64,000 nt of DNA, from the NCBI RefSeq assembly GCF_041270065.1, contig NZ_CP065958.1:4836001-4900000 (forward strand), read 5' to 3'. Origin of the DNA: Streptomyces fradiae (GTDB taxonomy: Bacteria; Actinomycetota; Actinomycetes; Streptomycetales; Streptomycetaceae). A program made the position numbers and the translations under genes. Within the stretch, counting starts at the first letter, position 1; every line of letters starts with the position of its first letter. A model generated the notes under the pieces. The model saw only the letters and a list, made by a program, of their open reading frames with translations. It was not told the DNA's origin and made no database searches. Below, one piece after another: positions 31,570 to 46,154 of this stretch.

Positions 31570-31884
31570 GGCCGGCATCTCCTTCCGTGGACGCCGGCAC
31601 GCGACGGCCCGAGTGGCGTGGGGGTGGGCCGGGTACGACGTGGGTCGGCGTGGGCCGCCCGCTCGGCGTGGTTCGCCGACGGTGGAGTGCGGTAGGGGAC
31701 GGGCTGCTTGGGCGTGCACGCTAGCGACCCCTGGGACGGGTGGGAAGCCCGGTGCGCCTTATGTCCGATACATTTTCGTGACCTGAAGCGGATCGTCGCC
31801 CTCCGTGAGATCGCGGTCACGTAGGCGGTCGCGTTCGCGGGACCGGGACCGGCTGTCAGTCCGGCGCCCTAGACTCGTTAGGCG
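31570..31884. other. divergent regulatory region, NlpC/P60 gene and pcrA
   Basis: 315 bp with no gene seen. On the minus strand it holds a likely NlpC promoter (TAGCGT -10 near 31722-31727 with TTCCCA 17 bp upstream). On the plus strand it ends in the PafBC-type promoter of pcrA. Confidence 0.5.
31853..31875 (+). promoter_or_regulatory. pcrA: RecA-independent (PafBC-type) DNA-damage promoter of pcrA
   Basis: CTGTCAGTC, exactly 8 nt, then TAGACT. The published consensus is tTGTCRgtg-N8-TAnnnT, and all core bases match. The -10 ends 9 nt before the ATG, so the damage transcript would be leaderless or nearly so. Confidence 0.7.
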
Positions 31885-34335
31885 ATGAGCAACAGCCTCT
31901 TTGACGACAGCTTCCTGGCGAGCCTCCAGCACCACGCGGAGGAGCCCCCGCCCCTGCCCGAGGACGACGAGCACGGCGCCCCCGCCGCGGAGGAGGTCCC
32001 GCACGACCTCTTCGGGGAGCACTTCGACGCGCCCCCGGCCGGCCGCGACGCCTACTACCGCGACGGTGCCCACCGCCCCGTCGCGGACCCCGCCGCGCTC
32101 CTGGACGGGCTCAACGAGCAGCAGGCGGCCGCCGTCGTCCACACCGGCTCGCCGCTGCTCATCGTCGCGGGCGCGGGCTCCGGCAAGACCCGGGTGCTCA
32201 CCCACCGCATCGCGTATCTCCTGGGCACCCGGCACGTCCACCCCGGCCAGATACTCGCCATCACCTTCACCAACAAGGCCGCCGGCGAGATGAAGGAGCG
32301 CGTCGAGCAGCTCGTCGGCCCGCGCGCCAACGCCATGTGGGTGTCCACCTTCCACAGCGCGTGCGTGCGCATCCTGCGCCGCGAGTCGAAGAAGCTCGGC
32401 TTCACGTCCTCCTTCTCGATCTACGACGCCGCCGACTCCAAGCGCCTGATGGCGCTGGTCTGCCGCGACCTGGACCTCGACCCGAAGAAGTTCCCGCCGA
32501 AGTCCTTCAGCGCCAAGATCTCCAACCTGAAGAACGAGCTGATCGACGAGGAGACCTTCGCCGACCAGGCCGCCGACGGTTTCGAGAAGACCCTCGCCGA
32601 GGCCTACCGGATGTACCAGGCCCGGCTGCGCGAGGCCAACGCGCTGGACTTCGACGACATCATCATGACGACGGTCCACCTGCTCCAGGCCTTCCCGGAC
32701 GTCGCCGAGCACTACCGCCGCCGCTTCCGGCACGTCCTCGTCGACGAGTACCAGGACACCAACCACGCCCAGTACACGCTGGTACGGGAGCTCGTCGGCA
32801 CCGGGTACGAGGACCTCGGCCCGGCCGAGCTGTGCGTCGTCGGCGACGCCGACCAGTCGATCTACGCCTTCCGCGGCGCGACCATCCGCAACATCCTCCA
32901 GTTCGAGGAGGACTACCCGGACGCGACCACGATCCTCCTGGAGCAGAACTACCGCTCCACGCAGACGATCCTGTCCGCCGCCAACGCCGTCATCGAGCGC
33001 AACGAGTCCCGCCGCCCCAAGAACCTCTGGACCAACGCGGGCGCCGGCGCGCAGATCACCGGCTACGTCGCCGACACCGAGCACGACGAGGCGCAGTTCG
33101 TCGCCGACGAGATCGACCGGCTGACGGACGCCGGCGACGCCAAGGCCGGCGACGTCGCCGTCTTCTACCGCACCAACGCCCAGTCCCGCGTCTTCGAAGA
33201 GATCTTCATCCGCGTCGGCCTGCCCTACAAGGTCGTCGGCGGCGTGCGCTTCTACGAGCGCAAGGAGGTCCGGGACGTCCTCGCCTATCTGCGCGTCCTC
33301 GCCAACCCCGAGGACAACGTGCCGCTGCGCCGCATCCTCAACGTGCCCAAGCGCGGCATCGGCGAGCGCGCCGAGGCGATGATCGACGCCCTCTCCCTGC
33401 GCGAGAAGATCACCTTCCCGCAGGCCCTCAAGCGGGTCGACGAGGCGTACGGCATGGCGGCCCGCTCCGCCAACGCCGTCAAGCGCTTCAACACCCTCAT
33501 GGAGGAGCTGCGCACCATCGTCGCCTCGGGCGCCGGACCCGCCGTGGTCCTGGAGGCCGTGCTCGAACGGACCGGCTATCTCGCCGAGCTGCAGGCCTCC
33601 ACCGACCCGCAGGACGAGACCCGGATCGAGAACCTCCAGGAACTCGCCGCCGTGGCCCTCGAGTTCGAGCAGGAGCGGGGCGAGGAGGGCGGCACGCTCC
33701 CGGAGTTCCTGGAGCAGGTCGCGCTCGTCGCCGACTCCGACCAGATCCCCGACGAGGACGAGGAGGGCGCCGGCGTCATCACCCTGATGACCCTGCACAC
33801 CGCCAAGGGCCTCGAGTTCCCGGTGGTCTTCCTCACCGGCATGGAGGACGGCGTCTTCCCGCACATGCGCGCCCTCGGCCAGACCAAGGAGCTGGAGGAG
33901 GAGCGCCGCCTGGCGTACGTGGGCATCACCCGCGCCCGCGAGCGGCTCTATCTGACGCGCTCCGCGATGCGCAGCGCCTGGGGCCAGCCCTCGTACAACC
34001 CGGCCTCGCGCTTCCTGGAGGAGATCCCGGCGACGTATCTGGAGTGGAAGCGGACCGGCCCGATGGCCAAGCCCGCCGGCCCGACCTCCGGGATCACGTC
34101 CTCGCTGTCCTCCTCGCGCTCCCGCTCCGGCCCGTCCGGTTTCGCCACCCGCCGCACCAGCGACAAGCCGGTGATCTCGCTGCAGATCGGCGACCGGGTC
34201 ACCCACGACCAGTTCGGCCTCGGCACGGTCATGGCCGTGCAGGGCGCGGGCGCCGACGCGCAGGCGACGATCGACTTCGGCGGCGAGAAGCCGAAGCGAC
34301 TGCTGCTGCGGTACGCGCCGGTGGAGAAGCTGTAG
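31885..34335 (+). CDS. pcrA: ATP-dependent DNA helicase PcrA/UvrD1
   Basis: Superfamily 1A 3'-5' helicase acting in nucleotide-excision repair and in clearing proteins from DNA. 816 residues. The acidic N-terminus of about 70 residues is followed by the Q-motif (LNEQQAAAV), Walker A IVAGAGSGKTRVL (about 96), motif II VDEYQDTN, motif III GDADQSIYAFRGA, motif IV LEQNYRST, motif V TLHTAKGLEFPVVF and motif VI VGITRARERLYLT. The C-terminal GDRVTHDQFGLGTVMAV Tudor-like domain contacts RNA polymerase in related proteins. Neighbours pcrA/M23 peptidase are conserved with M. tuberculosis uvrD1/Rv0950c. Regulation by the PafBC-type promoter is inferred from the motif just upstream. Confidence 0.97.
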   Translation: MSNSLFDDSFLASLQHHAEEPPPLPEDDEHGAPAAEEVPHDLFGEHFDAPPAGRDAYYRDGAHRPVADPAALLDGLNEQQAAAVVHTGSPLLIVAGAGSGKTRVLTHRIAYLLGTRHVHPGQILAITFTNKAAGEMKERVEQLVGPRANAMWVSTFHSACVRILRRESKKLGFTSSFSIYDAADSKRLMALVCRDLDLDPKKFPPKSFSAKISNLKNELIDEETFADQAADGFEKTLAEAYRMYQARLREANALDFDDIIMTTVHLLQAFPDVAEHYRRRFRHVLVDEYQDTNHAQYTLVRELVGTGYEDLGPAELCVVGDADQSIYAFRGATIRNILQFEEDYPDATTILLEQNYRSTQTILSAANAVIERNESRRPKNLWTNAGAGAQITGYVADTEHDEAQFVADEIDRLTDAGDAKAGDVAVFYRTNAQSRVFEEIFIRVGLPYKVVGGVRFYERKEVRDVLAYLRVLANPEDNVPLRRILNVPKRGIGERAEAMIDALSLREKITFPQALKRVDEAYGMAARSANAVKRFNTLMEELRTIVASGAGPAVVLEAVLERTGYLAELQASTDPQDETRIENLQELAAVALEFEQERGEEGGTLPEFLEQVALVADSDQIPDEDEEGAGVITLMTLHTAKGLEFPVVFLTGMEDGVFPHMRALGQTKELEEERRLAYVGITRARERLYLTRSAMRSAWGQPSYNPASRFLEEIPATYLEWKRTGPMAKPAGPTSGITSSLSSSRSRSGPSGFATRRTSDKPVISLQIGDRVTHDQFGLGTVMAVQGAGADAQATIDFGGEKPKRLLLRYAPVEKL

Positions 34336-37787: not shown

Positions 37788-39383
37788 TCAGCTTGCGCCG
37801 CTCAGCTCCGCGTGCATCGCCGCCCGCAGCTCCAGGGTGGACACCAGCCGCTGGAAGGCCTCCGACCAGTAGCCCGCGGCGCCCGGCGACGCGTCCTCCG
37901 GTTCGGCGGACACGGTGGTGAGCGCCGCGAGCTGCGGCGCCGCGTCCGGAGCCAGACAGCGCTCGGCAAGCCCCATCACGCCGCTGAAGCTCCACGGATA
38001 GCTGCCGGCGTCCCGCGCGATGTCCAGGGCGTCCACGACCGCCCGGCCCAGCGGCTCCGCCCACGGCACCGCGCACACCCCGAGCAGCTGGAACGCCTCC
38101 GACAGGCCGTGCGCCGCTATGAACGAGGCGACCCAGCCGGCCCGCTCCTCCGCGCCGAGCGTCGCGAGCAGCTGTGCCCGCTCCGCGAGCGAGGACGTGC
38201 CCGGGCCCGTGGCCTGCGGGGCGGCCGGGGAACCGAGCAGCGCCCGCGACCAGGCCGCGTCCCGCTGCCGTACCGCCGCCCGGCACCAGGCCGCGTGGAG
38301 CTCGGCCTGCCAGTCGTCCGCGACCGGCAGCGCCACGATCTCCTCCGGCGACCGCCCGCCGAACCGGGCCGGCCAGCAGCCCAGCGGCGCCGCCTCCACC
38401 AGCTGGCCCAGCCACCAGGACCGCTCGCCCCGCCCGGTCGGCGGGGTCGGCACCACCCCGTCGTGTCGCATCCCCGCGTCGCACTCGTGCGGCGCCTCGA
38501 CCACGATCGTCTCCGCGCCCCGCGTACGGTCCAGGGACACGCACGACGCGGCGCGCCCCGCCATCCGACCGGCCAGCGCGGACGCGGGCAGCGCCGAGAG
38601 CAGTTCGGCGGCCGTCGCCCGTACGTTACGGCTGCGGTCGGACAGGGCCGCCTCCAGGAACTCCTCGTCCGACGGACCGAGCCCCGCCCGCAGCGAGTCC
38701 AGGAACATCAGCCGGTCCTCGGCCCGCTCCGCGCCCCAGGTCGAGGCGAGCAACTCCCGGCCCCGCGCCGGATCCTCGGCCCGCACGGCGGCCAGCAACG
38801 CGACCCGCTCCGCGAACAGGCCCTCCTCCCACAGCGCGCGCACCCCCTCCGCATCGGCCGGATCGGGCAGCGCTCCCGCGCCGCCGCCCCCGCCCGTGCC
38901 GCGCAGGGCGAACTTCCACTCCGGGTTCAGCCGGGCCAGCCACAGGCCCCGGGGCCCGGCGAAGGCCAGCGCCTGGGGCCGCAGATCCGTCCGGGCGCGC
39001 GCCGCGTCGAGCAGTGCGGGCAGTGCGGCGGCCGGCGCGCGACAGCCCCGCTCGTTGGCGGCCGCCAGCCACTGCGGCAACAGCTCCGCCAGATCCGGCG
39101 CCGCCCCGCGCCGCCCCCCGGCCGGCGCGGGCGCGGCCCGGCCCGCGAGCAACTGCCCCAACCGCCGCCGCGCCGCCGCCGGCAGCACGGGCCGCGCGTC
39201 CTCCGGCGCCACCTCCAACGGCGCCGCGGCCGCCCCGGGCCGCAGCCCCGCCCTGCGACGCACGGTGTGCACGGCCGCGGCATCGAGCAGCGCGACCGCC
39301 CCGCCGTCCCCGCCGCCCGGCGCGAGCGGCTTCCGGTCGGTGCCAAGGAGCGCGGACGTGACGAGGTCTTCCCAGGCGTTCAT
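37788..39383 (-). CDS. DUF5691 family protein of the MoxR/SWIM system
   Basis: 531 residues, all-alpha and HEAT-like in appearance: repeated Ala/Leu-rich helices such as LLAAVRAEDPARGRELLAST and LEAALSDRSRNVRATAAELL, where the latter resembles a HEAT repeat. It begins MNAWEDLVTSALLGTDRKPL, the family signature, at ATG 39383 with TGGAGGAG upstream. It lies on the same strand as the SWIM gene but 535 bp downstream of it. DUF5691 genes usually accompany SWIM, MoxR, DUF5682 and VWA genes in Streptomyces (recalled). Its biochemical role is unknown; a protein-binding scaffold is the most the sequence supports. Confidence 0.85.
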   Translation of the reverse strand: MNAWEDLVTSALLGTDRKPLAPGGGDGGAVALLDAAAVHTVRRRAGLRPGAAAAPLEVAPEDARPVLPAAARRRLGQLLAGRAAPAPAGGRRGAAPDLAELLPQWLAAANERGCRAPAAALPALLDAARARTDLRPQALAFAGPRGLWLARLNPEWKFALRGTGGGGGAGALPDPADAEGVRALWEEGLFAERVALLAAVRAEDPARGRELLASTWGAERAEDRLMFLDSLRAGLGPSDEEFLEAALSDRSRNVRATAAELLSALPASALAGRMAGRAASCVSLDRTRGAETIVVEAPHECDAGMRHDGVVPTPPTGRGERSWWLGQLVEAAPLGCWPARFGGRSPEEIVALPVADDWQAELHAAWCRAAVRQRDAAWSRALLGSPAAPQATGPGTSSLAERAQLLATLGAEERAGWVASFIAAHGLSEAFQLLGVCAVPWAEPLGRAVVDALDIARDAGSYPWSFSGVMGLAERCLAPDAAPQLAALTTVSAEPEDASPGAAGYWSEAFQRLVSTLELRAAMHAELSGAS

Positions 39384-39918: not shown

Positions 39919-41292
39919 CTACACCAGCGGCACCGTCTCCCCGGGCGCGTCCGGGGACCAGGCGGCGAGCGGGGTGAAGCCCTGGTGGCCTATCTCGCCG
40001 AACACGCGGAGCGGGGTGCCGCCCGAGAGGGCGACCAGGCGCCAGAGGCCGGGCTGTTGCTGGGCTGACCGGGTCAGCGGTATCGCCTCGCGCTCCGGGG
40101 TTGCGCCCGGGGCGGTCCCGTACGGCTCCGAGTCGGCGAGCTGCCAGCCGTACTCCGCGCGGGCCGGGACCACGTCGGTGAGGGTGACCGGCCAGGCGTC
40201 CAGCCACGGGTCCTCGCGCAGCGCGCGTCCGTAGGTGTCGAGGGCGGCGCCCACGGGGGTGCCCTCCGGGGGTGGGCCGGCGGGGGCGGGCGGGGCGAAC
40301 TGCTCCACCAGTTCGGCGCGGAGTCCGCCGCCGGACGTGTGGGGGCGCAGCTCCGCGTCCAGGACGGCGCCGACGGGCAGGGCCAGTTGGGGCGCGCGGC
40401 CGGCCGCGCCGAAGGAGAGCAGCAGGGCCGTACGTCCGCTGCCGCGGCCGTGCAGCCAGATGCGACGGGTCGTCAGTCGGCTGTTTGCCGTGTCGTACTG
40501 GGCGAGCACCAGCCAGCGGTCCCGCAGCGGCGGGCCCTCCGGCGGGGCCGACAGGCCGACCCGGCTGCGGACGGTCGCGGCCAGCGGGCCGGGCAGCCGG
40601 TCCGCGGACAGCCAGGCCCGGTCGAGGAGATGGGTCAGCGCGCACTCCTCCAGGAGCCGCACCGGCCAGCCCGGCACGGAGCCCGGTATTGCACCCAACT
40701 CCCGGACCCGACCCGCGAGTCCGGGCGCCTGCGCGTCGACCATGCGGGCCGCCGTCTCCTCCCACAGCCCGTACCCCGCCTGCTCCGCCGAGGCGAGCCC
40801 GCCGCTCAGCAGGTCGGCGAGCCGCTGCTCCAACTCCTGGGCGCCCGCGGTGATCCGGGCCGCCCGGCGCTCCGCCCGGCGGCGCGCGGCCTCCGGGTCG
40901 GCGGGGCCCGCGTCCGGAGCGGTCCGTGCCGCCTCCGCCCGCGCGCGCCGGCCCGCGAGCCAGGTCTCCGCCCAGTCGGGCGCCTCGCCGGCCGCCGGCA
41001 CCGCCGCCCCGTCCGGGTCCCCCGCCCACAGCAACAGCAGCCCGAGCCCGTGCTTGCACGGGAACTTCCGGCTCGGGCAACTGCACGAGTACGCCGGGCC
41101 CGTGGTGTCCACCACCGTCCGGTACGGCGTGCTTCCGCTGCCCCTGCACAGGCCCCAGACGGCCCGGCCGTCGAAGCCCGCGCCGGACCACGGCCCGGGC
41201 GTGCCCAGCTTGCTTCCCGCTCTGCGCGACGCGTCGTCAGGAGCCAGTGCCAGCACCTGGTCCGCCGTCCAGCGCACCCCCTGCTCAGTCAT
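39919..41292 (-). CDS. SWIM zinc-finger protein of the MoxR system
   Basis: 457 residues from ATG 41292. The SWIM motif at about 70-82 reads CSCPSRKFPCKHGLGL (CxC...CxH), expected to bind zinc and DNA or protein. Most of the remainder is a helical domain (about 110-250) and a beta-rich C-terminal half with no recognised catalytic motif. E. coli YehQ, encoded beside a MoxR ATPase (YehL) and a VWA protein (YehP), is the known relative by organisation. The ATG is 7 nt after the -10 of a PafBC-type promoter, so the damage-induced mRNA would be leaderless. An ATG/GTG further upstream (41322) lies inside that promoter and is rejected. Confidence 0.9.
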   Translation of the reverse strand: MTEQGVRWTADQVLALAPDDASRRAGSKLGTPGPWSGAGFDGRAVWGLCRGSGSTPYRTVVDTTGPAYSCSCPSRKFPCKHGLGLLLLWAGDPDGAAVPAAGEAPDWAETWLAGRRARAEAARTAPDAGPADPEAARRRAERRAARITAGAQELEQRLADLLSGGLASAEQAGYGLWEETAARMVDAQAPGLAGRVRELGAIPGSVPGWPVRLLEECALTHLLDRAWLSADRLPGPLAATVRSRVGLSAPPEGPPLRDRWLVLAQYDTANSRLTTRRIWLHGRGSGRTALLLSFGAAGRAPQLALPVGAVLDAELRPHTSGGGLRAELVEQFAPPAPAGPPPEGTPVGAALDTYGRALREDPWLDAWPVTLTDVVPARAEYGWQLADSEPYGTAPGATPEREAIPLTRSAQQQPGLWRLVALSGGTPLRVFGEIGHQGFTPLAAWSPDAPGETVPLV

Positions 41293-41299
41293 GCGAACG

Positions 41300-41322
41300 A
41301 CCGTACGGGCCACCACTGACAA
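41300..41322 (-). promoter_or_regulatory. RecA-independent (PafBC-type) promoter of the SWIM gene
   Basis: On the minus strand TTGTCAGTG, exactly 8 nt, TACGGT: a perfect match to tTGTCRgtg-N8-TAnnnT. Transcription should start at or next to the ATG at 41292. Confidence 0.75.
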
Positions 41323-41370
41323 CCGCCTCGCGCACGGCTCCCACCTGCGGTTTCCCCCGGTCGGGGCCGA

Positions 41371-41393
41371 TTGTCAGTGGCATGGTGCACCGT
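41371..41393 (+). promoter_or_regulatory. RecA-independent (PafBC-type) promoter of the MoxR operon
   Basis: On the plus strand TTGTCAGTG, exactly 8 nt, CACCGT. The nine upstream bases are perfect and the -10 differs at its first base (C for T). With the opposite-strand copy it forms a 10-bp inverted repeat, CCACTGACAA (41313-41322) and TTGTCAGTGG (41371-41380). The predicted start is near 41400, 32 nt before the ATG. Confidence 0.7.
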
Positions 41394-41431
41394 GGATTTC
41401 ACAGCAGGTCGAACGATCTGGAGGGGGACCC

Positions 41432-42619
41432 ATGACCCTGCCCGAAACCACCACGACCACCGCCGCGTCCACTCCGGCGGACAGCGGGAACGACTGCGGG
41501 AACGACTGCGGGAACGACAGCGGGATCGGCAGCGCGAAGGACCGCGTGCTGCGGCCGCACGCCGAGGACGCCTTCGCCCACGAACTCGCCGCGCTCGCCG
41601 CCCAGGACGACCGGACCCGGCCCGCCCGCTGGAAGCTCTCGCCCTGGGCCGTCGCCACCTATCTCCTCGGCGGCACGCTGCCCGACGGCACGGTGATCAC
41701 ACCGAAGTACGTCGGCCCGCGCCGCATCGTCGAGGTCGCCGTCACCACGCTCGCCACCGACCGCGCCCTGCTCCTCCTCGGCGTCCCCGGCACCGCCAAG
41801 ACCTGGGTGTCCGAGCACCTGGCCGCCGCCGTCAGCGGCGACTCCACCCTGCTCGTCCAGGGCACCGCGGGCACGCCCGAGGAGGCCGTCCGCTACGGCT
41901 GGAACTACGCGCAGCTGCTCGCCCACGGCCCCAGCCGCGACGCCCTCGTGCCCAGCCCGGTCATGCGCGCCATGGACCGGGGCATGACCGCCCGCGTCGA
42001 GGAGCTCACCCGCATCCCCGCCGACGTGCAGGACACCCTCATCACCATCCTGTCCGAGAAGACCCTGCCGATCCCCGAACTGGGCGAAGAGGTCCAGGCG
42101 GTCGGCGGGTTCAACCTCATCGCCACCGCCAACGACCGCGACCGCGGTGTCAACGAGCTGTCCAGCGCGCTGCGGCGCCGCTTCAACACCGTCGTGCTGC
42201 CGCTGCCGGCCACCCCGGACGCCGAGGTGGACATCGTGTCCCGTCGGGTCGACCAGATCGGGCGCTCGCTCGACCTGCCCGCCGTGCCGGACGGCGTGGA
42301 CGAGATCCGCCGGGTCGTCACCGTCTTCCGCGAGCTGCGCGACGGCGTCACCACCGACGGGCGCACCAAGGTCAAGTCGCCCTCCGGGACGCTGTCCACG
42401 GCCGAGGCGATCTCCGTCGTCACCGGCGGCCTCGCCCTCGCCGCCCACTTCGGCGACGGCGTGCTGCGCTCGGCCGACGTCGCCGCGGGGCTGCTCGGCG
42501 CGGTGGTCCGTGACCCGGCGGCCGACCGGGTCGTCTGGCAGGAGTACCTGGAGACGGTGGTCCGGGAAAGAGACGGATGGAAGGACTTCTACCGCGCCTG
42601 CCGCGAGGTGAGCGCATGA
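41432..42619 (+). CDS. MoxR-type AAA+ ATPase
   Basis: 395 residues from ATG 41432 after GAGGGGG. Walker A is LLGVPGTAKTWVSEH (about 112-121), the sensor/Walker B region includes VEELTRIPADVQDTLITILSE with GGFNLIATANDRDRG, and an Arg-finger LSSALRRRFN follows. The N-terminus has a NDCGNDCGNDSG repeat encoded by a 12-bp tandem repeat. MoxR ATPases act as chaperones that load or remodel VWA-domain partners; the VWA gene lies two genes downstream. The stop overlaps the DUF5682 start by ATGA. Close organisational relative: E. coli yehL. Confidence 0.93.
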   Translation: MTLPETTTTTAASTPADSGNDCGNDCGNDSGIGSAKDRVLRPHAEDAFAHELAALAAQDDRTRPARWKLSPWAVATYLLGGTLPDGTVITPKYVGPRRIVEVAVTTLATDRALLLLGVPGTAKTWVSEHLAAAVSGDSTLLVQGTAGTPEEAVRYGWNYAQLLAHGPSRDALVPSPVMRAMDRGMTARVEELTRIPADVQDTLITILSEKTLPIPELGEEVQAVGGFNLIATANDRDRGVNELSSALRRRFNTVVLPLPATPDAEVDIVSRRVDQIGRSLDLPAVPDGVDEIRRVVTVFRELRDGVTTDGRTKVKSPSGTLSTAEAISVVTGGLALAAHFGDGVLRSADVAAGLLGAVVRDPAADRVVWQEYLETVVRERDGWKDFYRACREVSA

Positions 42620-44973
42620 CCCGCCTGACGGGCGGCGCCGTGCCCGCCCCGGCCGCCGGGCCGGGAGCGGCGGGCCGCCCCGGACCCGCCGCCGGCCCTG
42701 CGCCCGCCGCCGGCCCCCTCGTGCTCGGCGTTCGACACCACGGGCCCGGGTCCGCGCGGGCCGTGCTGGCCGCGCTCGATGCCGGACGGCCCAAGGCCGT
42801 TCTCATCGAGGGGCCGCCCGAGGCCGACGGGCTGGTCGGGCTTGCCGCCGAGGAGGGGATGCGGCCTCCGGTCGCGCTGCTGGCGCATGCCGTCGACGAC
42901 CCGGGGCGGGCCGCGTTCTGGCCGATGGCCGAGTTCTCGCCCGAGTGGGCCGCGATCCGCTGGGCCCTGGCGCACGGCGCGGAGGTCCGGTTCATCGACC
43001 TGCCCGCCGTGCACACCCTGGCCGCCTCCGATCCCACCTGGGACGACAGTGAGGAGTACGCGTCCGAGGACGCGGGGGCCGGGCTGCGCGTCGACCCCGT
43101 CGCCGAGCTCGCCCGCACCGCCGGGCACGACGACGCGGAGCGCTGGTGGGAGGACGTCGTCGAACTGCGCGGCGCCACCGACCCGTTCGCGCCCTTCGAG
43201 GCTCTCGCCGAGGCGATGGGCGCCCTGCGCGAGGCGTACGGGCACGGCGGCCACCCGCGCGACCTGGTGCGCGAGGCGCACATGCGGATCCGGCTGCGCG
43301 CCGCGCAGAAGGAGTTCGGCGACGACGTCGCCGTCGTCTGCGGCGCCTGGCACGTGCCCGCACTGCGCCGCCGCGGCACCGTCACCGCAGACCGCGCCCT
43401 GCTCAAGGGCCTGCCCAAGGTGAAGGCCGAACTGACCTGGGTGCCCTGGACCCACCGCCGGCTCGCCCGCCGCTCCGGATACGGCGCGGGCATCGAGGCC
43501 CCCGGCTGGTACGCGCATCTGTTCACCGCCCCCGACCGGCCCGTCGAGCGCTGGATGACCAAGGTCGCGGGCCTGCTCAGGGCCGAGGACCTGCCCGTCT
43601 CCTCCGCCCATGTCATCGAGGCCGTACGGCTCGCCGACACCCTCGCCGCGCTGCGCGGCCGGCCGCTCGCCGGGCTCGGCGAGACCACCGACGCGATCCG
43701 CGCCGTCATGGGCGACGGCTCCGACGCCGCCCTCGACCTGGTCCGCGACCGGCTCGTCGTCGGCGACGTCCTCGGCACCGTCCCGGCCGCCGCGCCCGCC
43801 GTCCCGCTCCAGCGCGACCTCGAACGGCTCCAGCGCTCGCTGCGCCTCAAGCCGGAGGCCCAGGAGCGCGAACTCGACCTCGACCTGCGCAAGGACAACG
43901 ACGCGGCCCGCAGCCGGCTGCTGCACCGGCTCCGGCTGCTCGGCGTCACCTGGGGCGACCCCGTCGCCGGCCGCGGCTCCACCGGCACCTTCCGGGAGAG
44001 CTGGCGGCTGCGCTGGGAGCCCGAACTCCACGTCCAGATCGCCGAGGCGGGCGTCTGGGGCACCACCGTCGAGGCCGCCGCCACCGCCTGGGCCGAGTCC
44101 CAGGCGGCCGCCGCCGACGACCTCGCCGCCATCACCTCGCTCGCCGAGCGCTGTCTGCTCGCCGGCCTCACCGACGCCCTGCCCGCCGTCCTCCACGCGC
44201 TCGCCGACCGCGCCGCCCTCGACACCGACGTCGCCCACCTCGCCCAGGCCCTCCCGGCCCTGGCCCGCGCCCTGCGCTACGGCGACGTCCGTGCCACCGA
44301 CACCACCGCCCTCCGCGAGGTCGCCGCCGGCCTCGCCGAACGCATCTGCGTCGGCCTGCCGCCCGCCTGCGCGGCCCTCGACGCGGACGCCGCCGCGGAG
44401 ATGCGCGAACGCCTCGACGGCGTCCACACGGCGATCGCGCTCCTCACCGACCGGGGCGATCTCGCCGACCGCTGGGCCGGGGTGCTGCGGCGGCTGGCCG
44501 GGCGGGAGCGGGTGCCCGGGGTGCTGCGGGGGAGAGCCGTGCGGCTGCTGCTCGACGAGGGGCGGTTCGCGGTGGACGAGGCGGCCCGGCTGATGGGGCT
44601 CGCCCTGTCACCCGGGGCTCCGCCCGCCGATGCCGCGGGCTGGGTCGAGGGGTTCGTCGGCGGGGCCTCCGGGGGCGGGCTGCTGCTCGTGCACGACGAG
44701 CGGCTGCTCGGCCTGGTCGACGACTGGCTCGGCGGCGTGAGCGCCGACGCGTTCACCGACGTACTGCCGCTGCTGCGGCGCACCTTCGCCGCGTACGAGC
44801 CGGGGGTCCGGCGCACCCTCGGCGAGCTCGTCGCCCGCGGCCCGGCCGGCCCCGGCGGCCCCGCCGCGGCCGCGGCCGCCACCCCCGGCTTCGCGCCCGA
44901 ACCCGACGAGCGCCGGGCCGACGCCGTACTGCCCCTGCTCCACCTCATCCTCGGTACGGAGGTCCCCGCATGA
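42616..44973 (+). CDS. DUF5682 family protein, possible TraB/ChaN-like fold
   Basis: 785 residues, overlapping its neighbours by 4 nt at both ends (ATGA), so MoxR-DUF5682-VWA are translationally coupled. After a 35-residue Ala/Pro/Gly lead comes LVLGVRHHGPGSARAVLAAL, then KAVLIEGPPEADGLV, FIDLPAVH and later VAVVCGAWHVPALRR (about residues 243-257). This order (G-x-RHH, then an E-G-P strand end, then GAWHVP) resembles the conserved His/Glu layout of the TraB/TIKI/ChaN-like superfamily, so a metal-dependent hydrolase is possible. The remaining 500 residues are helical. Relative by organisation: E. coli yehM. Function is unknown. Confidence 0.85.
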   Translation: MTRLTGGAVPAPAAGPGAAGRPGPAAGPAPAAGPLVLGVRHHGPGSARAVLAALDAGRPKAVLIEGPPEADGLVGLAAEEGMRPPVALLAHAVDDPGRAAFWPMAEFSPEWAAIRWALAHGAEVRFIDLPAVHTLAASDPTWDDSEEYASEDAGAGLRVDPVAELARTAGHDDAERWWEDVVELRGATDPFAPFEALAEAMGALREAYGHGGHPRDLVREAHMRIRLRAAQKEFGDDVAVVCGAWHVPALRRRGTVTADRALLKGLPKVKAELTWVPWTHRRLARRSGYGAGIEAPGWYAHLFTAPDRPVERWMTKVAGLLRAEDLPVSSAHVIEAVRLADTLAALRGRPLAGLGETTDAIRAVMGDGSDAALDLVRDRLVVGDVLGTVPAAAPAVPLQRDLERLQRSLRLKPEAQERELDLDLRKDNDAARSRLLHRLRLLGVTWGDPVAGRGSTGTFRESWRLRWEPELHVQIAEAGVWGTTVEAAATAWAESQAAAADDLAAITSLAERCLLAGLTDALPAVLHALADRAALDTDVAHLAQALPALARALRYGDVRATDTTALREVAAGLAERICVGLPPACAALDADAAAEMRERLDGVHTAIALLTDRGDLADRWAGVLRRLAGRERVPGVLRGRAVRLLLDEGRFAVDEAARLMGLALSPGAPPADAAGWVEGFVGGASGGGLLLVHDERLLGLVDDWLGGVSADAFTDVLPLLRRTFAAYEPGVRRTLGELVARGPAGPGGPAAAAAATPGFAPEPDERRADAVLPLLHLILGTEVPA

Positions 44974-46154
44974 CGACCACGCGCCTGACGACTACGCCCA
45001 CGGACGACGAGCGGCTGCGCCGCTGGCGCCTCGTCCTCGGCGGGGGCGAGGCCGACGGCACCGGGCGGGCGCTCACCGGAACCGACGCCGCCATGGACGG
45101 GGCGCTGACCGCGCTCTACGGCAACGGCGGCAACGGCGGCAAGGGTGGCAAGAGCGACAAGGGGGCGCGCGGCGGCGGGCTCGGCGGGTCCGCGCCCTCC
45201 GTGGCGCGCTGGCTCGGGGACATCCGCACGTACTTCCCCAGCTCCGTCGTGCAGGTCATGCAGCGCGACGCCATCGAGCGGCTCGGGCTGGCCACGCTGC
45301 TCCTGGAACCGGAGATGCTGGCGGCCGTCGAGCCGGACGTGCACCTCGTCGGGACACTGCTCTCGCTCAACAAGGCGATGCCCGAGACCACCAAGGAGAC
45401 CGCCCGCGCCGTGGTCCGCAAGGTCGTCGAGGACCTGGAGAAGCGGCTCGCCGCCCGCACCCGGGCCACCCTCACCGGCGCGCTGGACCGCTCGGCCCGG
45501 ATCAGCCGGCCGCGGCACCGGGACATCGACTGGGACCGCACCATCCGCGCCAACCTCAAGAACTACCTGCCCGAGCACGGCACGGTCGTCCCCGAGCGGC
45601 TCGTCGGACACGGGCGGGCGTCCCAGGCGGTCAAGAAGGAGGTGGTGCTCTGCATCGACCAGTCCGGCTCCATGGCCGCCTCCGTCGTCTACGCCTCCGT
45701 CTTCGGTGCCGTCCTCGCCTCCATGCGCTCCCTCGCCACCCGGCTCGTCGTCTTCGACACCGCTGTCGTCGACCTCACCGAGCAGCTCGACGACCCGGTC
45801 GACGTGCTCTTCGGCACCCAGCTCGGCGGCGGCACCGACATCAACCGGGCGCTCGCCTACTGCCAGTCCAGGATCACCCGCCCCGCCGACACCGTCGTCG
45901 TCCTCATCAGCGATCTGTACGAGGGCGGCATCCGCGACGAGATGCTGAAGCGGGTCGCGGCGATGAAGGCCTCCGGGGTGCAGTTCGTGACCCTGCTCGC
46001 GCTCTCCGACGAGGGCGCGCCCGCCTACGACCGGGACCATGCCGCGGCGCTCGCCGCGCTCGGCGCCCCCGCCTTCGCCTGCACCCCCGACCTCTTCCCC
46101 GAGATCATGGCCGCCGCCCTGGAGAAGCGCCCGCTCCCGATACCCGAGGCGTGA
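44970..46154 (+). CDS. VWA domain protein partner of the MoxR ATPase
   Basis: 394 residues, start ATG 44970 overlapping the DUF5682 stop (ATGA). A Gly/Lys-rich stretch (GNGGNGGKGGKSDKG) follows an N-terminal helical segment. The C-terminal half is a von Willebrand A domain with a perfect MIDAS: DQSGSMAAS (about residue 229), the Thr in LGGGTDINRAL and the Asp in LISDLYEGG. Such proteins bind metal-dependently to partners inserted or remodelled by MoxR ATPases. Relative by organisation: E. coli yehP. Last gene of the operon; a weak hairpin follows. Confidence 0.93.
   Translation: MTTTRLTTTPTDDERLRRWRLVLGGGEADGTGRALTGTDAAMDGALTALYGNGGNGGKGGKSDKGARGGGLGGSAPSVARWLGDIRTYFPSSVVQVMQRDAIERLGLATLLLEPEMLAAVEPDVHLVGTLLSLNKAMPETTKETARAVVRKVVEDLEKRLAARTRATLTGALDRSARISRPRHRDIDWDRTIRANLKNYLPEHGTVVPERLVGHGRASQAVKKEVVLCIDQSGSMAASVVYASVFGAVLASMRSLATRLVVFDTAVVDLTEQLDDPVDVLFGTQLGGGTDINRALAYCQSRITRPADTVVVLISDLYEGGIRDEMLKRVAAMKASGVQFVTLLALSDEGAPAYDRDHAAALAALGAPAFACTPDLFPEIMAAALEKRPLPIPEA

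Follow-up and report, generated by a model that had tools for sequence, protein, structure and literature searches.

The window analysed here, a 64-kb stretch of Streptomyces fradiae DNA, carried five genes that Pfam searches confirmed as encoding DUF5691, SWIM, AAA_5 (MoxR), DUF5682 and VWA_CoxE proteins. The DUF5691 gene (nt 37788–39383; PF18944) and the SWIM zinc-finger gene (nt 39919–41292; PF04434) lay on the minus strand; moxR, encoding a YehL-like AAA+ ATPase (nt 41432–42619; AAA_5), the gene for a YehM-like DUF5682 protein (nt 42577–44973; PF18934) and that for a CoxE/YehP-like VWA protein (nt 44970–46154; PF05762, VWA_CoxE) lay on the plus strand. The coordinates of the DUF5682 gene are those of the ORF start, and its true start may lie further inside the ORF than nt 42577. 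Since 535 nt lie between the SWIM stop and the DUF5691 start in the window, co-transcription of these two genes is not certain here.

Only two exact copies of TTGTCAGTG were present in the window, facing opposite ways and both situated between the SWIM gene and moxR. The minus-strand element (nt 41322–41300), TTGTCAGTGGTGGCCCGTACGGT, consisted of a -26 box TTGTCAGTG at nt 41322–41314 and a -10 hexamer TACGGT at nt 41305–41300, and the plus-strand element (nt 41371–41393), TTGTCAGTGGCATGGTGCACCGT, of the same box at nt 41371–41379 and a hexamer CACCGT at nt 41388–41393. The gap between 9-mer and hexamer was exactly 8 nt in both, just as the earlier note had described this opposed pair, and 48 nt lay between the back-to-back boxes. 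This layout corresponds to the RecA-NDp promoter consensus of mycobacteria, given as tTGTCRgtg - 8 nt - TannnT in the part of PMC5656591 that was available, where the promoters are assigned to PafBC; the elements are accordingly termed PafBC-type here. The hexamer on the SWIM side matched TAnnnT exactly, and in that on the moxR side C replaced the first T. Of the 39 genome sites described below, 17 had C as the first base, and YAnnnT was therefore used as the search hexamer. With up to two mismatches, TTGTCRGTG-N8-YAnnnT matched 20 times in the 64 kb, the SWIM/moxR pair alone being free of mismatches. A role of TTGTCA as a housekeeping -35 was ruled out by the distance of merely 11 nt to the hexamer, and a chance origin of the sites was discarded, as it was not reproduced by the backward pattern, wrong spacers or permuted cores.

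The SWIM ATG (nt 41292) was located 7 nt past the -10 hexamer of the minus-strand element, so that the SWIM mRNA is probably leaderless. This start was chosen from a conserved distance: in 73 genus loci, an ATG was the first start codon met downstream of the SWIM-side site at 7 nt in 68 and at 6 nt in two. The TTG at nt 41322, taken as the SWIM start by the ORF finder, sits inside the promoter box and is not the likely start. The moxR ATG (nt 41432) was 38 nt past the end of the plus-strand element and was preceded by a good ribosome-binding site, GGAGGGGG, at nt 41420–41427.

Conservation of the two elements

An orthologue of MoxR was found in 56 of 61 genomes of the genus, as a single match in each, and a MoxR gene in 72 of the 296 genomes of a class-wide sample, including 30 of the 31 that belong to the genus. 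Among 83 genus loci, the moxR-side site showed no mismatch in 77 and one in six, and the SWIM-side site none in 68, one in five, three in eight and four in two, as against at least two mismatches at every locus for the backward control. A set of 80 Streptomyces loci, defined as those with the nearest MoxR genes and overlapping partly with the 83, contained the exact site on the moxR side in 76 and on the SWIM side in 60. Beyond the genus, 35 loci from 14 other genera of the family, taken from 35 of 63 genomes with a match, carried sites with one mismatch or none on the moxR side in 31 and on the SWIM side in 19 (two or fewer in 32 and 26, respectively); at least two mismatches were seen at the SWIM side in 16 and at the moxR side in four of the 35.

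Outside the family, the genes where mapped were arranged SWIM-DUF5691-MoxR-DUF5682-VWA, all in one direction, with some loci ending at a contig edge and DUF5691 not being detected at one locus (L199). Of 36 such loci, 32 had the core TGTC-N12-YAnnnT-N6-8-start where SWIM begins, and none of the 36 matched when any of 13 other spacers or any of 11 permuted cores was put in its place. The set omits L162–L166 (four distant MoxR matches and one contig end); L168, L195 and L200, which had no SWIM match, reduced it from 39 to 36, and L185, cut by a contig end, was counted as a miss. The matches came from three family labels (f15, f16 and f37). Two f4 loci (L183 and L186) possessed a variant -10, TGTCGGTG-N8-TACAA, as judged by eye, and no promoter core was found at the SWIM start of the lone f22 locus (L205). 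Since the gene order differs outside the family, yet the core stays at the SWIM start, this promoter type has stayed with the SWIM gene. Conservation of the motif at orthologous MoxR/SWIM loci, which the earlier note had named as a check on its proposal, was hence borne out within the genus, among other genera of the family and, as regards the start of the SWIM gene, in further families.

The promoter class across the genome and its regulator

In the genome, a single contig of 7.88 Mb, TTGTCRGTG-N8-YAnnnT occurred 39 times exactly versus 0 for the backward pattern, and the bare TTGTCRGTG 220 times versus 41 backwards. The hexamer followed at N8 in 39 of these 220 copies (18%), compared with about 1% estimated from base composition. 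Omission of the two module sites and of four sites without a convincing downstream start (L009, L015, L025 and L039) left 33 genes, with start codons picked by the analyst; in 20 of them the start codon so picked lay 6–7 nt past the hexamer. Domain scans covered 30 of the 33 downstream proteins (all except those of L013, L036 and L037), and half of the scanned proteins (15/30) were associated with repair, replication or topology. These were two uracil-DNA glycosylases, DinB, RuvC, a 5'-3' exonuclease, a RecD2-like helicase, MGMT, an MGMT-like protein, RadA (a label given on the strength of its domains and sequence), a family-A DNA polymerase, DnaX, Lhr, RecA, topoisomerase IV A and LexA. The remaining 15 included WGR, macro-domain, DUF4132, pentapeptide-repeat, DUF218, DUF4259, Imm21 and YunG proteins, a DtxR-type repressor, two transporters, a methyltransferase and three proteins without a match. 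All 31 Streptomyces genomes scanned held such sites, 13 to 91 in each versus 0 to 3 backwards.

Genes for PafB and PafC were located in tandem near 1.474 Mb, after a gene that was named FKBP-like by the analyst. Their products matched PafB and PafC of structure 7p5x over almost the full length (E values of 3.8e-52 and 1.3e-54, respectively), and the presumed recognition helix of PafB, EDAFNRMFERDKDDLRELG against DEAFSRMFERDKNELRDLG in 7p5x PafB, was nearly unchanged.

Both divergent elements are thus probably genuine PafBC-dependent damage promoters, an assignment strongly supported by comparison and to which we give a probability of roughly 0.87. The earlier note had identified them as such: the conservation of the sites, the repair genes marked by the class and the PafB and PafC encoded in the genome all speak for the damage-promoter identity, while the dependence on PafBC is a step that we still infer. 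The -26 box, the 8-nt spacing, a -10 hexamer tolerating C at its first base, the presence of PafB and PafC and the company of repair genes are common to the mycobacterial promoters and the present ones, whereas the Streptomyces host, the divergent pair, the MoxR/SWIM cargo and a recurrent GCAGGTC 7–8 nt upstream of the box (see below) set the latter apart from the mycobacterial regulon. Extension of the promoter class to other Actinobacteria has been presented in a review (PMC8223512, in the part available). For S. venezuelae, Stratton et al. 2022 (PMC9380542, in the part available) report that a first motif search spoke against conservation of the PafBC motif of M. smegmatis. The presence of such sites at the expected position ahead of repair genes, in all 31 genus genomes scanned, bears on whether Streptomyces has a PafBC-type response, a question that this study left open. 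No description of a Streptomyces PafBC regulon, or of the module as its member, was found in the open-access literature. The module is regarded as a well-supported new member of a published promoter class, and the cargo is a machine about which little is known.

Several further sites were observed. An exact PafBC-type site lay 107 nt ahead of the chosen start of a LexA-family gene (L034), which would bring SOS under the influence of PafBC. Exact sites were also borne by a macro-domain gene (L038) and by the DUF4132 and WGR genes (L001 and L033), whose families are represented next to yehL in E. coli by yehI and yehF. Within the window, a two-mismatch PafBC-like site, CTGTCAGTC-N8-TAGACT (nt 31853–31875, plus strand), was situated 9 nt ahead of the ATG at nt 31885 of a gene that, from its sequence, encodes a UvrD/PcrA-like helicase.

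Function of the module and its links to DNA topology

Three of the five proteins had homologues in E. coli: the moxR product shared 39% identity with YehL (E = 3e-71), the DUF5682 protein 28% with YehM (E = 6e-43) and the VWA protein 37% with YehP (E = 9e-77). YehQ and the SWIM protein both contain PF04434, yet gave no BLAST match with each other, and the yehLMPQ region is without a DUF5691 counterpart. To our knowledge, E. coli has no PafBC. Almost no literature was found on this widespread MoxR system, to which the damage promoters would give a functional setting. The pairing of an AAA+ MoxR protein with a VWA partner also recalls RavA-ViaA and NorQ-NorD, and the VWA protein matched the ViaA model weakly (23 of the 500 bits needed); those pairs work on respiratory enzymes or in metal insertion, whereas the present one adds SWIM, DUF5682, DUF5691 and a damage promoter.

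By analogy with mycobacteria, accumulation of single-stranded DNA would cause PafBC to join the housekeeping RNA polymerase at the -26 box TTGTCAGTG, and transcription would start about 7 nt past the -10 hexamer in both directions, yielding leftward the probably leaderless SWIM mRNA, perhaps extending into DUF5691, and rightward moxR-DUF5682-VWA. Cells under genotoxic or topological stress would in this way make a YehLMPQ-type MoxR/VWA remodelling machine, in which the SWIM protein may bind DNA or a partner, MoxR-VWA may act as motor and adaptor, and DUF5682 may be a ChaN/EreC-like domain carried by a scaffold of helical repeats; the superfamily is what we take to be that of Tiki and EreA. The role that appears most likely, although put forward tentatively and at well under even odds, is to remodel nucleoprotein complexes, at the expense of ATP, where DNA is damaged or over-wound. 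With somewhat less reserve, but still short of an even chance, it may be suggested that the MoxR, VWA, SWIM and DUF5682 proteins together with WGR and DUF4132 proteins constitute an ancient machine for genotoxic and topological stress, one that takes apart or shields protein-DNA complexes where the DNA is over-wound or broken. Different lineages would have placed this machine under unrelated damage regulators, and SCO4804 would act on topA through it. The regulators would be PafBC here, DdrO for the WGR and DUF4132 genes of Deinococcus, and LexA, the regulator named for MolR of E. coli.

SCO4804 enters through work on topA in S. coelicolor. In the available part of Gongerowska-Jac et al. 2021 (PMC8120823), topA promoter activity falls when sco4804 carries a transposon and increases when the gene is overexpressed, sco4803-4805 rise about eightfold on TopA depletion, and SCO4804 binds DNA only non-specifically and does not contact TopA directly, from which the authors infer an indirect effect; in their view, sco4804 and its neighbours also do not share an operon. 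That part of the paper names neither SWIM nor MoxR, and PafBC is likewise absent from it. Judging from gene order, length (815 aa) and relatives, sco4803, sco4804 and sco4805 are likely the MoxR, DUF5682 and VWA genes, respectively, so that the topA factor would correspond to the DUF5682 gene of the module. The downstream landmark for this gene order was sucCD, presumably sco4808-4809. SCO4804 would then be one component of a machine induced by damage, a reinterpretation that is testable. In a TopA-depleted strain, recA, recX, dnaE2, dinP, uvrA and lexA are induced, which is ascribed to LexA, and the repair genes also go up when topA is up-regulated (Szafran et al. 2019, PMC6637917, in the part available). 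As the signal for the activator is described as single-stranded DNA (PMC11804915, in the part available), and hypernegative DNA could supply it, PafBC could explain the rise of both the module and the repair genes. The rise on topA up-regulation is left unexplained by a single-stranded DNA signal from hypernegative DNA; since several repair genes share it, the signal may be damage in general.

Three other explanations were weighed against PafBC control. That TopA-depletion response, as the available part of Szafran et al. presents it, would favour placing the module in the LexA/SOS regulon, with or without PafBC as a second regulator, as would the PafBC-type site at the lexA-like gene L034. 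However, the exact palindrome GAAC-N4-GTTC was present in none of 83 genus loci within 600 nt upstream of moxR, and LexA as sole control was dropped for this reason. One-mismatch palindromes were somewhat frequent (25 of 83 loci, with 3, 5, 6 and 13 for four control palindromes), one of them, GAAC-N4-GTAC at nt 41295–41306, lying over the SWIM -10, so that an added LexA control is conceivable; membership of this regulon is nevertheless considered unlikely. Slightly more improbable is that the promoters sense supercoiling itself, hypernegative DNA opening weak -10 hexamers and DUF5682 feeding back on topA, with PafBC incidental. The available text of Gongerowska-Jac et al. does call sco4803-4805 supercoiling-dependent and reports the effect of SCO4804 on the topA promoter, but supercoiling alone would leave unexplained the conserved -26 box and fixed N8 common to recA, ruvC, radA and further genes, and, as far as the two topA papers were available, the rise of repair genes in the same TopA-depleted strain and the lack of specific topA promoter binding or direct TopA interaction by SCO4804 also argue against it.

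A ternary-type MoxR-vWA conflict system, in which the damage promoter would detect invaders, is very improbable. Such systems occur in Streptomyces according to the available part of PMC7159879, and the module shares their MoxR plus vWA core and matches bpMoxR weakly; yet that score was 22.2 against a cut-off of 27 bits, PADLOC returned no match for any of the five proteins, and no VMAP or effector families were among their matches to Pfam models. Nor is the distribution of the MoxR orthologue, in 56 of 61 genus genomes, patchy.

Box spacing and the GCAGGTC element

Both boxes were present in 138 of 163 genus loci (83 + 80, partly overlapping). Box spacings shorter than 70 nt, available for 127 genus loci, were only 26–27, 36–39, 47–49 or 59–61 nt; exceptions of 29, 41 and 51 nt were seen at three loci of other genera. 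In view of these exceptions, and as relatedness of the loci was not controlled for, strict helical phasing of the boxes was dropped in favour of a mere tendency.

The sequence GCAGGTC, an element 7–8 nt upstream of the -26 box of which we know of no description, was found on either strand in 102 of 121 unique inter-box sequences shorter than 75 nt (L040–L122 and L214–L293). Of the copies on the moxR strand, 67 of 69 ended 7–8 nt ahead of the moxR box, and the 33 on the SWIM strand were situated 7–8 nt (25 copies) or 18–20 nt (8 copies) from the SWIM box; the window itself contained GCAGGTC in degenerate forms only. The element could serve as a contact point for the alpha subunit of the polymerase or for some other factor. 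The composite GCAGGTC-N7/8-TTGTCRGTG occurred one to five times per genome in 47 of 61 genus genomes, with the backward control found in one of 61. It also precedes other genes with PafBC-type sites (likeness of their proteins judged by eye), and this recurrence led to rejection of GCAGGTC as an operator private to the present locus.
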